A stretch of DNA of 64,000 nt, from assembly GCA_964036665.1 (NCBI GenBank), contig OZ038529.1, positions 21,834,060 to 21,898,059 of the forward strand, given 5' to 3'. The notes under the pieces are model-generated. The model was not told the DNA's origin and did no database searches. It saw nothing but the letters and a program-made list of their open reading frames with translations. Position 1 is the stretch's first letter. The number at the start of each line of letters is the position of its first letter. Shown here one piece after another: positions 1,038-61,045 of the stretch. Both the position numbers and the translations under genes were made by a program. This DNA is from Gordius sp. MW1. Taxonomy: Eukaryota > Nematomorpha > Gordioida > Gordea > Gordiidae.

Positions 1038-1472
1038 AACCCAACCTCCGAAGAAATTAGAACCCAATTTTGGGGTTTTTAAGTCGAAGGCGACGGTAAT
1101 TGTTTTTACCGTTGCATAAGCAAAGCAATCTATGATGATCCAAATCATCATTCATTAATCCGCAATTATATTTGTAATTATTATTCTTCAGCTCCTCCAC
1201 CTCCAGAGGTGAAGGCTATGGTCGCACCAGAGACTATAGCAGAATATATTATTTCTCATAAATTAAATATTTTAAAAACTTGGTCTACACATATCGATAT
1301 TTTATTATTTTCTCATGCATTTAATATTTCAATTCATGTTTATACCTGGCAGAGGCAATTAAACAAATGGGTATGGTTTTCTTACCCTCATTGTTTTTCT
1401 CCAGATAATTACGCAATTTATTTACAACATAAAATTAATTATTTCAACTTTATTTACGATTGTTGTTTATAA
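1038..1472 (+). pseudogene. OTU-family cysteine protease domain, broken
   Basis: Translation from 1083 gives V-E-G-D-G-N-C-F-Y-R-C-I-S-K, the catalytic Asp-Gly-Asn-Cys box of OTU (ovarian tumour) deubiquitinase-like proteases, and the frame stays open to a stop at 1470. An in-frame TAA at 1080-1082 directly before this box interrupts the domain; upstream codons from 1038 continue the same frame. Near the end, where OTU domains have a catalytic His followed by an aromatic residue, the sequence reads I-N-Y-F, so the His seems replaced by Asn. It was probably part of the same transposon as the integrase tail at 155-400. Confidence 0.6.
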
Positions 1473-8993: not shown

Positions 8994-10017
8994 GGAAAGT
9001 GGGAGAAGGAAGGGAGGACGACTCATCTATTCTCCGTATAAATGTAGCATATTTGCTATGCAATTTATGGGCGAGAAAGGTGAGAAGGGGCGAGAATGCC
9101 TATAGGGGAGGATAATTGCTAGGGTTTCCCCCTTGGCAAAGACAGCAAACTACTAGGTTTTCTATGAAATCACAATCTAATTAAACGAAATATATTAACC
9201 CAATAAAAAAATATATATGCTTTTATAAGGAAGAAAGGTGGGAACGGGCGAAAATGCCTATAGGGGGTAGGATAATTGCTAGGGTTTCCCCCTTGGCTAC
9301 TACTCCCATGCTAGTTACACAACATAAAAATCTACTTTTTTGTCCAAAAAAAATAAATGAAAATTCATTTAAATTTAAACCCTCAATTTTACTCGCCGTT
9401 TTATAACGTATGTTTTGCATGTGATAAAAATTTGAAGAAGAAAAAGATAGTTTTTTTTTTTAATTTGGCAGAAGCTGGCTATGTAACAAGGGATTGTTTT
9501 TTAAAATAAAATGTGAACATTAAATAATCAAATATACTTTAAAAATTCTATTATTAATTCAAAAATCCATATTGTCGTAAAGAATGTTTCCAGTTATAAC
9601 AACAATTATCCTCGTCTAGGTTAGGCTTTCTTTAGTGTATTACTAATTTTATATTAATTTATTTGCTAAAATATTCGAACCCAAAAACTGGTTAAATTAA
9701 CAAAAATTAAAAGTAAACAAAACAAGACATTCGGTGCTCATTTTTTTTATTGGTCAGCACCCAACGGACGGCCAAAACGTCCTATTATCAATGGTAGTAA
9801 CAAGAACAATCATAATAGTCGAAAAAAAACGAAAAAATAAACTTAGATTCACATTTTGGCCAATGGTCATTTTTTCCATCGGTCAGCAGCCAACGGACGG
9901 CCAAAAAGTCTTATTGTCAATGGTAGTAACAAGAACAATCATAATAGTCGAAAAAAAACGAAAAAATAAACTTGGATTCACATTTTGGCCTTTGGTCATT
10001 TTTTCATTGGTCAGGAC

Positions 10018-10535
10018 CAGGGATTTGTCCCGAACCCGAACCCCTGAACCCGAACCGGGTAAAACCCGATGTTTTACAGAACCCGAACCCAACCCCGAAC
10101 CCATTTTTAAAGATACTTTTAAAACCCGAACCCGAACCCGATGAATACAAAAAAGGGTTCGGGTTCGGGTTTTTAATTCAAAAATATATTGTGAATTGAA
10201 TATCTCAGTTTTCTCTATCATGACAATGTAACGAAAACCATACGATTGTAATTTCAATATTTTTATGTTTCCGGCATTTTTCATTTATTAATCCATACTA
10301 ATTATCTCAAGAATTATTTGTAAGTATTATATATATAATTGATATATATTAGTTATGGTATGGTTTAAAAATGTATTATTAGTATAATATAATTTCTTGA
10401 ACCCGAACCCGAACCTGTACCCGAACCCAAACCCAATTCCTTAAACTCGAACACGAACCTGAACCCGATTTCAAATATGCCAAACCCGAACACGAACCCG
10501 AACCCGATTTTATTTTTGGCCGGTTCAAACCCCTG
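10018..10535. mobile_element. hAT-type element with CCCGAA arrays
   Basis: The ends are imperfect inverted repeats, CAGGGATTTG on the left and CAAACCCCTG on the right. They are flanked by an 8-bp target duplication with one mismatch, GTCAGGAC (10010-10017) and GTCAGCAC (10536-10543). Subterminal parts are degenerate arrays of AACCCG on both sides, and the centre is AT-rich and non-coding. It is inserted in a satellite unit of copy B; removing it rejoins GTCAG-CAACC of the unit. Confidence 0.8.
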
Positions 10536-21716: not shown

Positions 21717-21722
21717 TTTATT
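21717..21722 (-). promoter_or_regulatory. poly(A) signal overlapping the AGK stop
   Basis: On the minus strand AATAAA spans the TAA stop codon of AGK (TCA AAA TAA AGA). If used, the 3' UTR would be about 15-30 nt, matching the compact introns. Confidence 0.45.
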
Positions 21723-23637
21723 TTGATATGTCAACATTTTTATGTAAAATATTGAATGTATGAGGTAAAATTTCCATGTCTATCTTTTTAGATATATAAC
21801 TCAAATTATGATCCTCAGGTGCGGATTGCATTCTTGATTCACTGTTTAAATTAACATCACTTTCTGCTCTGTCATCATTATTATGTTTGATTATTTTTAT
21901 TTCAATGTGTTTAACATCTTCTTTGTACAAATGCAACAAATTATAAGCCAGTTCTTCTTTAGATGCACTACCAAATATTTAATAATTATTATTAATAGCT
22001 TACCTGATTGAATTAGCCTCACTTATAACATTCTCTAAAGCTTGTATAGAATTTATTTGTGAAGGATATCCAATAATTTGTACATCAGTGTTTTCTGAAT
22101 CTGGTCTAAATTTTGCAGTAATATGTGTAGTCTCTAAGTAAGATGTTTCAGGATGTTTATGGTGGGGTGATATGGGTATAGATTCTTCTAGACATTATTA
22201 TTTAATAATTAAGAATAATTAATAAATTACTTGGATAAAAATAGTCCAGAAATTTGGATACTCCCAACAATTTATAAAATGTTTGAAGAAATGTTAAAGT
22301 ATTAGTGTGACAAGCTGAGCATGGATTTTCTATGGCACATGGATTATACCAAAAGGTTATTTCTGCATTAAATGGATCAGGTGATTTGTAGTCCTTTAAT
22401 AATTTAAATTTTATAAAAAATTATTTTGACATAAAATAATACTTTTACAGTGGAGGATATTTTATGTTTTAACTCATAATATATTTGTTTAATCTGATAT
22501 AGGATATCTTTATCAAAATGCAGAGCAAACACATCTTTCATTTTTCTACCCCACAAATAAGGTACATTGTGAGAGTAAGTATCATTATTCCCAATATCAA
22601 CTTGTTGGAAAAAACAGGCATCATTTTCTAGAATTAGTTTGTTATCACATAGTATATCATTTGTTTTTTGGTCTGCCTTGTTATCAAATTTTTCACAATG
22701 TATTTCAACAAGGTTTATTAATTTTGCAGATACTTTAGATATCGTATCATTTTGAACGTCTTTTTCAAAGTAAGACATTTGATAACCATTACATCCTATA
22801 CCCAATGCTGTATCAGTTAGATTGTATAAAGGGATATCATTTGTTTTAGGCTCACACTTCTGCTTTGTCGGGTTACCCCATAAAAAATTAAGATTTGATA
22901 TTAATGTTGAAGAGATTGGTTTATATGATGACCATTTGGTTTTGAAAAATTTACTTTCAGAAACACCAAAATCAATCCATGCAAATTGAATTTTTTTAAT
23001 TATTTTACCAAAATCTGAATTGCTAATAGTTTTGAGGTACTTTACAAACCCTGATACAATATTTTCACTACCCAATATAATAACCCCAAGGGATTGATTT
23101 GAATTACTACTGAAAGGAAAATCATATTGAATATTAGTTGCAGAAATCTGTTTTATAAAATAAGGTAGCTCCTTATCGATTACACTATCTTTTAAATGAC
23201 TACTAAAATCATCATTTGAAATCTATAAAATATTATAGCACAATATGTTGCTAAATACCTTGATTATATCAACTAAAACGCCAGCAGAATGTAAGATAGG
23301 GGCTACATAGTTATTATAATATTTAAATGTAGAATGTCTGTATTTGTCATTCGTTTCATCCAGTAAAACAAACACTTTGCGTGGATCATCGTGTGGACTT
23401 ATTTTCAGGTCACCATATTTCTATACTATTTGATATAAATAACAATTTGATTAAATTTTACCTGTGCATTTAAGCAATAGGCTTTGACTATCTGATTTTC
23501 ACTAAAATACATGTATTTTATGAATAATATATTTACCTATACAATTGATGCAAATATCGTACACCCCCTAAAGATAACACTCCAAAGAAACATACCTTTT
23601 TCCAATTATTTCTTATTTTGAAAAATACATTTTTCAT
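21718..23637 (-). CDS. AGK: acylglycerol kinase, mitochondrial (AGK), seven exons
   Basis: Exons on the minus strand: 23637-23537, 23501-23462, 23420-23259, 23222-22449, 22393-22231, 22187-22004 and 21967-21718. All introns are GT-AG and 36-55 bp, phases fit, and 557 codons are open. AGK is a mitochondrial lipid kinase and, in vertebrates, a kinase-independent subunit of the TIM22 carrier translocase. Matches to the family: the start M-K-N-V-F-F-K-I-R-N-N-W-K-K with a following hydrophobic segment; A-Q-K-Y-G; V-A-P-I-L-H-S-A-G-V-L-V-D-I-I-K (about 86-101); a Cys cluster at C378, C384, C387; and the E-I-L-P C-terminal strand. The V-I-I-L strand at 148-151 leads into G-S-E-N instead of G-G-D-G-T, and the nucleotide-loop segment after V-F-V-L-L is also altered, so catalysis is doubtful. 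It is longer than the 422-residue human protein through an insertion in exon 4. Confidence 0.82.
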
Positions 23638-24227: not shown

Positions 24228-25163
24228 TTAAATTTGTTCCCTTCTAGGTTCTTCTCTGGGCGTTTCTGACTGGTTTTGCATTTGTTCCCTTATAGCACTT
24301 GTTCCCCCTTCCCTTTCTGATGATATCCTTTGCGGCCACCGGTTCTCTTGTCCCAGTGTGGTCCAATCCAAGATTTTCCGTTTCCTTACTTGATCCACGT
24401 GTCGGTGGTGTTTTCTTCCCTGTGCCCATACAACGTAGGACCGACTACCGTGCTTGGCTTTTATCGTGCCTTTTACCCATTTACTTGGTCCTAAAAACAT
24501 ACGTACCCAAATCAAGTCTCCTACGTTGAACATCTGCGGGTTCCCGGTCTCTACCCATTGTTGTGGTACGGTTTCCCTCAATACCTCCCATTCGGTTCGC
24601 ATACGTCTTTTTAGCATCACCTCTGCTGGGCCTTTATTGGTTGTGGGGTGTTTTGTAGATCTGTAGTTTTCTAAACATCTACTTAGCTCTACTTCCGACT
24701 CGTTTCTAATAATTTCTTTAATTAATCGTACATATCTTTCTGCCAGACCGTTAGACGCAGGATGGTAAGGAGCTGTCCATCGCTGATTAATCCCTCTCAT
24801 CTTGCAAAAATTCTGTAATTCCTGCCCTTTGAATTGCGGGCCGTTATCTGATATTAACCATGGCGGATTTCCAAATCTAGCAAACGTTTCGGCAAGTTTT
24901 TTTATAATGGTGGTCGCTGTGGTGTCTTCTAATTTAAACACCTCTACCCATTTCGAGCTATTCTCCACCATCACCAGGTATGACTTACCCTTGAGAGGAC
25001 CCATGATATCGATATGCTGAACCCACGGTCTATGGCTAGGTTGATACTCTATCAACGGTGCCTTCTTCGCCGCCGCGACAGTGTAATTGCAATTCCGGCA
25101 CCCTTTCGCTACGCTCAATAAGTCATCGTCGAGAGTAGGCCACCATATATACTGCCCCGCCAC
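24228..25163 (-). pseudogene. gypsy integrase, core intact
   Basis: Reading begins inside the zinc-binding region (C-R-N-C at about 22-25). The catalytic triad is present: D52 (H-I-D-I-M-G-P), D106 (L-I-S-D-N-G-P-Q-F) and E142 (S-N-G-L-A-E-R), giving D-D-35-E. The C-terminal part keeps V-G-D-L-I-W-V-R-M and a V-x-Q-V-R-K-R-K tail, then a polar extension to 311 residues. A single in-frame TAA just before this segment separates it from the H-x-G-H-V-G-I-K-R-M zinc-finger half in the upstream frame. Catalytically competent by residues, but unlikely to be made in place. Confidence 0.88.
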
Positions 25164-26027: not shown

Positions 26028-27158
26028 TTACTTCCTTCGCCCACAAGATGCTCTTGGAATGTTTGGCACGAAACCCCATTTTTGTAACGTTTCTAGTACT
26101 TTGAGTAACCGCTCGTTGTGAATTTCTTCCGTTTCCCCCGCGATTAGTATATCATCGATGTATACCGCTACCCCCTCCATGCCTCCTAATATCTGATCCA
26201 TTGTTTTTTGGAAAATCGCCGCGGCGCAATTTAAGCCAAAAGGCATTCGGTTAACTTTAAATAGGCCCTTGTGCGTGGAGATAGTCAATCGTTGGCTCGT
26301 TTCTGGACCTAATTCGAGTTGTAAGTACGCTTTCGTTAGGTCTAGCTTAGTAAAACAACACGCGTTATCGAGTTTATTTAACAAATCGTCGATTTTGGGT
26401 AAGGAGTACAACAATCCTTGAGCGTATTTGTTTATAGTAAACCGGTAATCAATACATAATCGAAGAGTCCCATCGCTTTTTTTCACGGGTACCACTGGAC
26501 TGGCCCATCTTGAGAAATCGATCGGTTCTATCACCCCGTCTCTGACCCATTTGTCCAGCTCTTCTTCTACTTCTTTCTTCCACGCCATCGGCACCCTTCG
26601 TGCGGGGATAAATACGGGATCTATGCCCTCTTTTAACGGTACTTCCACCCTTATTCCCTTGACTGCTTTTGAAAATTCGTTTAGCTGGCCCTCCCATTGC
26701 TTCATCACGTGCCGGATCGCTGACTTGGAATCCTTCGGTCTTTCTACGTAATTTACCGCGAACCGTTCCGCCGCAGCTCTGGAGTTCCAACGAATTCGTC
26801 GCCAAATTTCGGGCTCAAATTCTTGGATCTAATCGATCCCACACAACGGCAGCTTAGCTACGTCTACTATCAATAACGACAGCTGTTTTCTCGTGTCCCC
26901 CATTCGGACATCAGCTTGTACCTTGGCTACGATCTTTATTTCCTCGTGGCCGTACGCGTACACCGTCGGGACGGGCTTTTTGTTGCGTGGGATCTCCTTC
27001 GCCCATCTTCGCGCCGGTATTATCGATACCGTGGCGCCGGTATCGAAGATGCATTGGAATAATTCGTTATTAATATACAGATCTACAGTTAACACATCTA
27101 AAGCATGTTTTAACCTGGGAATTCGGACCGGCCCAAGCCACGCTTCTCGTCTCGCCAC
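26028..27158 (-). pseudogene. gypsy protease and reverse transcriptase
   Basis: Protease at 27158-26829 has C-I-F-D-T-G-A-T-V-S-I-I-P (D39 of this segment). A TAG near 26829, probably from a Trp codon, separates it from the reverse transcriptase in the same frame. The polymerase shows L-D-L-T-K-A-Y and V-Y-I-D-D-I-L-I-A, so all three catalytic Asp are kept, plus M-P-F-G-L. The frame shifts after L-Q-K-W-G-F near 26070. Tether sequence before P-V-F-I-P-A-R-R is normal for gypsy. Confidence 0.88.
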
Positions 27159-51781: not shown

Positions 51782-53345
51782 TTAATTGCTATGCAATTTA
51801 TGGGCTCACTTTCCAATTTGTTTTGTCACGCTATTCGGCGTGCGCGCCGAACGTGGATGTCACGCACCGAATGACTTCGGCTTGTTTACTGCTAAAACCG
51901 CTTGGAATTCGAATATTAATGTTAATTTAACTAGTTTTGGGGTTAGAATCCCGGAGTTTTTTTGACTTTTATGATTGTTCTTGTTACTATCATTGATAAT
52001 AAGAATTTTTGGCCGTCCGCTGGCTGCTGACCAATGAAAAAAATGACCATTGGCCAAAATGTGAATCGAAATTATTTTTTCGTTTTTTTTTGACTATTAT
52101 GATTGTTCCTGTTTCTACCATTGTTATTATGACTTTTTGGCCGTCCGCTGGCTGCTGACCAATGTTATATAATAAACATAAATAAAAGTTGTTTACTTTT
52201 AATTGCTATGCAATTTAACTAGTTTTTGGATTAGAATCCCGGAGTTTTTTTTGACTCTTATGATTGTCCCTGTTTGTTCTTGTTACTATCATTGATAATA
52301 AGAATTTTTGGCCGTCCGCTGGCTGCTGACCAATGAAAAAAATGACCATTGGCCAAAATGTGAATCGAAATTATTTTTTTCGTTTTTTTTCGACTATTAT
52401 GATTGTTCCTGTTTCTACCATTGCTATTATGACTTTTTGGCCGTCCGTTGGCTGCTGACCAATGTTATATAATAAACAGAAATAAAAGTTGTTTACTTTT
52501 ATTTGCTATGCAATTTAACTAGTTTTTGGGTTAGAATCCCGGAGTTTTTTTTAACTCTTATGATTGTCCCTGTTACTACCATTGCTATTATGACTTTTTG
52601 GCCGTCCGTTGGGTGCTGACCAATGAAAAAAATGACCATTGGCCAAAATGTGAATCCAAGTTTATTTTTTCGTTTTTTTTCCGACTATTATGATTGTTCC
52701 TGTTACTACCATTGATAATAAGACGTTTTGGCCGTCCGTTGGCTGCTGACCAATGAAAAAATTGACCATTGGCCAAAATGTGAATCCAAGTTTATTTTTT
52801 CGTTTTTTTCGACTATTATGATTGTTCCTGTTACTACCATTGATAATAAGACGTTTTGGCCGTCCGTTGGCTGCTGACCAATGAAAAAATTGACCATTGG
52901 CCAAAATGTGAATCCAAGTTTATTTTTTCGTTTTTTTTCGACTATTATGATTGTTCCTGTTACTACCATTGATAATAAGACGTTTTGGCCGTCCGTTGGG
53001 TGCTGACCAATGAAAAAATTGACCATTGGCCAAAATGTGAATCGAAATTTTTTTTTTCGTTTTTTTTCGCTAACACTGATTTATAGACCATCTGTTGGAA
53101 CTGACCAATTAAAAAAATGACCATTGGCCAAAATGTGATTCGAAAATTTTTTTTTTGTTTTTTGTTTTGACTCTTATAAATTTATATCCACTTTTACCGT
53201 GTCCTGGCTGCTGACCAATGAAAAAAATGACCATTGGCCAAAATGTGATTCGAAAATTATTTTTTCGTTTTTTTGACTATTATGAATTTATAACCACCTC
53301 TACCCTGTCCTGGCTGCTGACCAATTAAAAAAATGACTTATATCA
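51782..53345 (+). mobile_element. Helentron-like satellite element, copy D, 5' part
   Basis: It starts TTAATTGCTATGCAATTTAT and carries the CACCGAATG segment shared with copies B and E. About ten satellite units follow at 51960-53340; the central four are 128-130 bp apart. Internal AATTGCTATGCAATTTAACT starts at 52200 and (with one change) 52500 show repeated duplication of the 5' module. The matching 3' module is at 55362-55655, so 53346-55360 may be inside the element or a later insertion. Confidence 0.65.
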
Positions 53346-59682: not shown

Positions 59683-61045
59683 TAATTGCTATGCAATTTA
59701 TGGGCTCGTTTTTGGTTGTCCGTCGTCCATCGTCCACCAAGTTTTTGGCGCCAGCTTTGTGACCTGGAGGTGTCGGGTTCAAGCCAGGGAGGGGACGAAT
59801 TTTTTTTTAATTTTTTTAAATTAAATTAATATTTTGTTCTTGTTTTTTATTTAGTTTTGACTTTTCATTAGATAGATGATTTAAGTGCCTATTTTCCATT
59901 TTTTATAGGTGTCAATGTCATTAATATAGGCAAAAGCCTCTTATATTTAAAAATAACCATATTTTATATTAATTGCTATGCAATTTATGGTCTCACTTTC
60001 CATTTTGTTTGTCCGCCATTCGGCGTCCGCACCGAACGTGGATGTCTTGCACCGAATCTTGCACCGAATGTCTTTTTTGTTTACTTTTAATTTTTGTTAA
60101 TTTAACCAGTTTTTGGGTTCGAATCCCGGGTTTTTTTTTGAATATTATTATTGTTACTGTTACTACCATTGATAATAAGACTTTTTGGTCGTCGGCTGGC
60201 TGCTGACCACTGGAAAAAAATGACCATTGGCCAAAATGTGAATCCAAGTTTATTTTTTCCTTTTTTTTTTGACTCTTATGATTGTTCCTGTTACTACCAA
60301 TGCTATTATGACTTTTTGGTCGTCCGCAGGCTACTGACCGATGGAAAAAATGACCGTTGGCCAAAATGTGAATCCAAGTTTTTTTTTCGTTTTTTTTGAC
60401 TATTATGATTGTTCTTGTTACTACCTTTGATAATAAGACTTTTTGGTCGTCCGCAGGCTACTGACCGATGAAAAAAAATGACCATTGGCCAAAATGTGAA
60501 TCAAAAATTTTCTTCTCCGTTTTTTTTTGACTATTATGATTGTTCCTGTTACTACCATTGATAATAAGACTTTTTGGCCGTCCGCTGGCTACTGACCACT
60601 GGAAAAAAATGACCATTGGCCAAAATGTGATTCGAAAATTTTTTTTTCGTTTTTTTTTGACTCTTATGAATTTATATCCACTTTTACCGTGTCCTGGCTG
60701 CTGACCAATGCAAAAAAATGACCATTGGCCAAAGTGTGAATTGAAATTTTATTTTCATTATTGTTTTGACTCTTATGTATTTATATCTACTTTTAACGTG
60801 TACTGGCTGCTGACCGATGGAAAAATGACCATTGGCCAAAATGTGAATCGAAATTATTTTTTTCGTTTTTTTTGACTCTTATGAATTTATATCCACTTTT
60901 ACCGTGCCCTGGCTGCTGACCAATGAAAAAAATGACCATTGGTTAAAATGTGGTTGAAAAAGTTTTGATATCCTTACAATACCTGTGTCATTTTTAGGTG
61001 TACGGTCGTAACAGGCAATAGCGGAGCTATTGCCTGTCGCTGCTT
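59683..61045 (+). mobile_element. Helentron-like satellite element, copy E
   Basis: Two 5' modules (TTAATTGCTATGCAATTTATG at about 59684, a variant at 59970) are followed by GGGTTCGAATCCCGGG at 60115, about seven satellite units (60140-60960) and a perfect 12-bp hairpin, ACAGGCAATAGC-GGA-GCTATTGCCTGT, at 61014-61040. The hairpin matches the one at 20276 and differs from the GGGCC type of copies C and G. It ends about 115 bp before SIK3 exon 2. Confidence 0.65.

Follow-up and report, generated by a model that had tools for sequence, protein, structure and literature searches.

An AGK-like gene with no recognisable lipid-kinase signature and its possible place in the TIM22 translocase

The gene and its surroundings

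The window, the whole 64 kb stretch of DNA that was analysed, contains an AGK-like gene whose seven exons join in phase (Table 1). The spliced coding sequence is 1674 nt long and specifies 557 residues plus a stop codon, with zero internal stops, and each of the six introns (35, 41, 36, 55, 43 and 36 nt) begins with GT and ends with AG. A run of 557 open codons would arise by chance, at the local base composition, with a probability of about 8e-22, the remaining five frames of the spliced sequence hold 30–85 stops each, and base composition is uneven between codon positions. The open spliced frame, its low probability by chance and the stops in the other frames indicate, as far as can be judged by sequence, that this is a real coding gene. 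The preliminary description of this DNA had proposed an intact, open gene of seven exons, and in this it was correct. The open reading frame also suggests that the gene has been kept under selection.

Table 1. Coordinates, in window positions, of the AGK-like gene, its exons and other open reading frames (ORFs).
Feature	Positions	Strand	Content
AGK-like gene	23637-21718	-	Seven exons in phase; ATG at 23637, stop codon ending at 21718
Exon 1	23537..23637	-	ATG and N-terminal anchor (MKNVFFKIRNNWKKVCFFGVLSLGGVRYLHQLY); aligned to human AGK from residue 3; donor GTAAAT
Exon 2	23462..23501	-	ENQIVKAYCLNAQ; aligned to AGK DNLLRRAACQEAQ
Exon 3	23259..23420	-	KVFVLL (probable first beta strand), DETNDKYRH loop, VAPILHSAGVLVDIIK; AGK similarity significant up to here
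Exon 4	22449..23222	-	Expected continuation of kinase domain; contains GVIILGSEN; no DAGK_cat similarity found
Exon 5	22231..22393	-	No recognisable family
Exon 6	22004..22187	-	No recognisable family
Exon 7 and stop codon	21718..21967	-	EILPHTF resembles AGK KLLPRKL by eye only
Retrotransposon integrase and reverse transcriptase ORFs	24228-25163 and 26028-26828	-	Upstream, about 600 bases from the AGK-like ATG
OTU-like cysteine protease ORF	1083-1472	+	Pfam OTU, 31 bits
Repeat-derived ORF	9701-10144	+	Common translated unit like GQQPTDGQ.VLLSMVVT.TIIIVEKK, by eye
Repeat-derived ORF	52706-53080	-	Same unit
Repeat-derived ORF	59993-60457	-	Same unit

Outside the window, the mitochondrial contig (C12) comprises 14,798 bases, with TGA codons in COX1 and a gene order that we take to be ecdysozoan in appearance. 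This order differs from the two kinorhynch orders given in PMC5068742. COX1 matches 24 places in the genome: a single one lies on C12 and the other 23 on nuclear contigs, among them one near full length. The nuclear places (C8:2829490-2830827 and others on C1, C3, C4 and C5) have the look of mitochondrial DNA that was copied into the nucleus. A genome search with the arthropod cuticle family PF00379 gave no match, nor did its controls.

Similarity to AGK and Tim54, and the missing kinase motif

The solved structure that best matches the predicted protein is human AGK (7cgp_B; E 2.7e-7, residues 4-105). The second match, and the last at E up to 1, is yeast Tim54 (6lo8_B; E 0.012), and residues 102-557 yielded zero PDB matches at E up to 10. 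A profile was built from 82 AGKs, picked by length among the best 120 of 721 matches to human AGK; the named entries among those 120 are vertebrates. This profile scored 37.6 bits over the whole sequence, whereas none of 2000 shuffled copies and one reversed copy exceeded 4.3, and it aligned with residues 2-103 only of the 557. The protein therein has an AGK-type N-terminus, consisting of the anchor and the first alpha/beta unit. Our own profile of the AGK C-terminus found no match in the protein. Blocks aligning with AGK had been described on both flanks; the N-terminal one holds for residues 2-103, and the C-terminal one is not borne out by the profile.

The sole Pfam match at E up to 10 (a limit within which the HMMER filters remove most matches above about E 0.1) was to Tim54 (PF11711; 25.9 bits, residues 11-100), which does not reach the gathering cut-off of 34.7. 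Neither DAGK_cat (PF00781) nor AGK_C (PF19712) matched the protein in that search. Two real AGKs, from frog (P0106) and chicken (P0041), had DAGK_cat scores of 94 and 85 bits, AGK_C scores of 342 and 384 bits, and Tim54 scores of 16.9 and 19.3 bits. The Tim54 score of the AGK-like protein is thus above that of either of these AGKs, and the protein has no match to the kinase domains. No relatives were found in the protein database, either for the whole protein at E up to 1 (5730 candidates) or for residues 1-104 at E up to 10 (31 candidates). A predicted structure of exons 3-4 (P0121), made without relatives, had a pLDDT of 34.6 and was rejected as a query for fold search.

The GGDG motif is not encoded in any of the six frames of the unspliced window, and neither G-x-D-G nor GG-x-G is present in the spliced protein. 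These two scans make the absence of GGDG(T) independent of any alignment, and with the lack of a DAGK_cat match they bear out the absence of GGDGT claimed previously. A GGDGT exon hidden within an intron can be rejected, as the introns are at most 55 nt long and none of the six frames contains GGDG; at the level of sequence, then, there is no such exon to be spliced in. The first phosphate-binding loop, NPAACKGKA in AGK, is DETNDKYRH in this protein, a replacement that falls inside the aligned region and supports the change that had been noted after VFVLL. The further proposal that GSEN occupies the position of GGDGT is not supported. Past residue 103 the profile alignment scored 13.7 compared with 12.4 (SD 9.8) for shuffled sequences at one gap setting, and 26 of the 60 shuffles scored as high. 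GVIILG was placed under a later AGK loop, GFIPLGETSS, at two of three gap settings, and GSEN under GGDG at the other one; likewise, the pairing of GSEN with GGDGT was present in one MAFFT alignment and absent from another.

A candidate role and its alternatives

That this is an intact, AGK-derived gene without a kinase signature is well supported by the sequence. We give a probability of about two in three to the reading that it is an AGK orthologue without the lipid-kinase active site, kept as a non-catalytic subunit of TIM22 in the manner of Tim54. We infer orthology from residues 2-103, about 100 of the 557. According to this reading, the AGK orthologue of this animal would have lost the lipid-kinase active site together with most of the recognisable sequence of the kinase domain. 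With the kinase motif absent, the gene is probably retained for the job of AGK in protein insertion at the inner membrane, and its product would belong, as a non-catalytic component, to TIM22, the carrier translocase of mitochondria, with a role in carrier import. Through its conserved anchor and first alpha/beta unit the protein may sit next to Tim22 and Tim29, in much the way that fungal Tim54 does. That it is non-catalytic, resides in mitochondria, belongs to TIM22 and docks in this manner is predicted.

The expected partners are encoded in the genome. Tim22 and Tim17 loci are present, the two being recognised by eye; Tim29 was found with an E value of 2.7e-33, and small Tims gave seven matches at E up to 0.01, which were read as five loci. 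In PMC7523481, no Tim29 homologue was found outside Holozoa, so that its presence here marks the genome as that of an animal or a close relative of animals. The presence of Tim22, Tim29 and small Tims speaks against a different mitochondrial role for the retained N-terminus, for instance in support of complex I and not TIM22, and so does the location of the match to Tim54, a TIM22 subunit, in this same N-terminal part. Mouse-liver AGK reportedly binds subunits of complex I, and its action there is said not to depend on the kinase activity (PMC9065199); exons 4-7, moreover, have no PDB match. Both points leave room for such a role; we nevertheless regard it as unlikely.

Another explanation is that the locus is a paralogue, and that the true AGK was missed, lies in an assembly gap or has its GGDGT codons split by an intron. 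The genome (211.8 Mb in 12 contigs) was searched for a second AGK. The AGK-like protein, at E up to 10, matched its own genome in four pieces, all at the known locus, and the AGK-like DNA, at E up to 0.1, matched only itself. DAGK_cat found four places, all of which looked by eye like ordinary diacylglycerol kinases (DGKs). The GGDGT codon pattern occurred at 43 sites as against 126 for a reversed-pattern control, fewer than chance suggests, and translation of all 43 revealed no AGK context by eye; three were recognised as DGKs (L029, L030, L063) and two as NAD kinases (L027, L042). Another of the translated sites (L057; G000:C8:2787637-2790050) has GGDGT in a frame recognised by eye as PEPCK-like. 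The pattern GGDGxxxE occurred at 49 sites (85 for the control), none of them AGK-like by eye, where 14 were picked by eye and translated, one (L037) was among the 43 GGDGT sites and 34 were judged from eight residues. No second, GGDGT-bearing AGK copy was therefore found by protein, DNA, DAGK_cat or pattern searches, all within limited sensitivity. Codon-pattern searches are blind to a motif that an intron divides, and Xenopus AGK as a query produced no candidate and missed the known locus as well, so that an equally divergent second AGK may escape. AGK_C found no match in the genome, and its positive controls gave none either. Sphingosine and ceramide kinases are expected in most animals. Neither turned up in this genome with DAGK_cat or at the GGDG pattern sites, which means that the genes have been lost or that the searches are insensitive, and the negative result for a second AGK is weakened accordingly. 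Given that the protein and DNA queries match this locus only, that the DAGK_cat places look like DGKs and that no translated pattern site is AGK-like, we consider a paralogue quite improbable.

It might also be supposed that the protein is a very divergent yet active kinase, with rewritten active-site loops and ATP bound by other sequence. The region past residue 103 has diverged beyond recognition, and absence of the motif alone is thus no proof of inactivity. However, G-x-D-G and GG-x-G occur nowhere in the protein, the first phosphate-binding loop is altered as well, and a single change, G126E, is stated to eliminate the kinase activity of AGK (PMC9065199), so that an active enzyme appears very unlikely. 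Finally, a decaying gene or fast-evolving pseudogene whose frame is still open by chance would fit the adjoining retrotransposon ORFs, but in view of the 557 codons free of stops, the six short and clean introns, stops throughout the other frames and the uneven codon-position composition it deserves hardly any credence.

Comparison with known systems

Mutations in AGK lead to Sengers syndrome. The human protein is described as having two jobs, phosphorylation of lipids and support of TIM22. In human cells, a lack of the kinase activity is said to upset both the ultrastructure and the respiration of mitochondria (PMC7408425), an argument against the idea that the activity can simply be dispensed with. 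For the G126E form, TIM22 integrity is said, from earlier work, to be maintained, and the livers of G126E mice on a chow diet were normal (PMC9065199). Among the papers listed by searches of an open-licence library, no title or abstract opening concerned an animal AGK without the kinase motif. An AGK relative without a kinase domain is already known in fungal Tim54 (PMC7523481), and the general point is not new. The more specific proposal is that AGK in an animal lineage independently lost its kinase and is now a purely structural subunit of TIM22, leaving the animal without an AGK-type mitochondrial acylglycerol kinase; to this we would give even odds. If it is true, there is a parallel with fungi: an animal would have been able to do without the enzyme activity of AGK on an evolutionary time scale, and the import role alone would be able to preserve an AGK gene outside fungi. 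A natural, kinase-less animal AGK would separate the lipid-kinase and import jobs in evolution, and would single out the N-terminal 100 residues of AGK as relevant to import.

In its first 100 or so residues the AGK-like protein resembles human AGK (7cgp_B) in the FFK..RN.WKK start, the DNLLRRAACQEAQ-like helix, the KVFVLL strand and APILH..G. It differs in having no GGDGT, DAGK_cat or AGK_C, in the altered first phosphate loop and in its length, 557 residues compared with 422. Kinase-dead G126E AGK provides an engineered counterpart, an AGK without kinase activity that is stated to leave TIM22 intact (PMC9065199). There a single engineered change stands against what would here be a natural loss accompanied by wholesale divergence. 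The protein also resembles Tim54 (PF11711; 6lo8_B), which both the Pfam and the PDB searches matched. This TIM22 subunit of fungi is described as a divergent AGK whose kinase domain has been lost or is unrecognisable (PMC7523481), and is thus likewise an AGK relative with no detectable kinase domain. The two differ in that the match lies under the Pfam cut-off and that Tim29 is present in the genome that carries the AGK-like gene.
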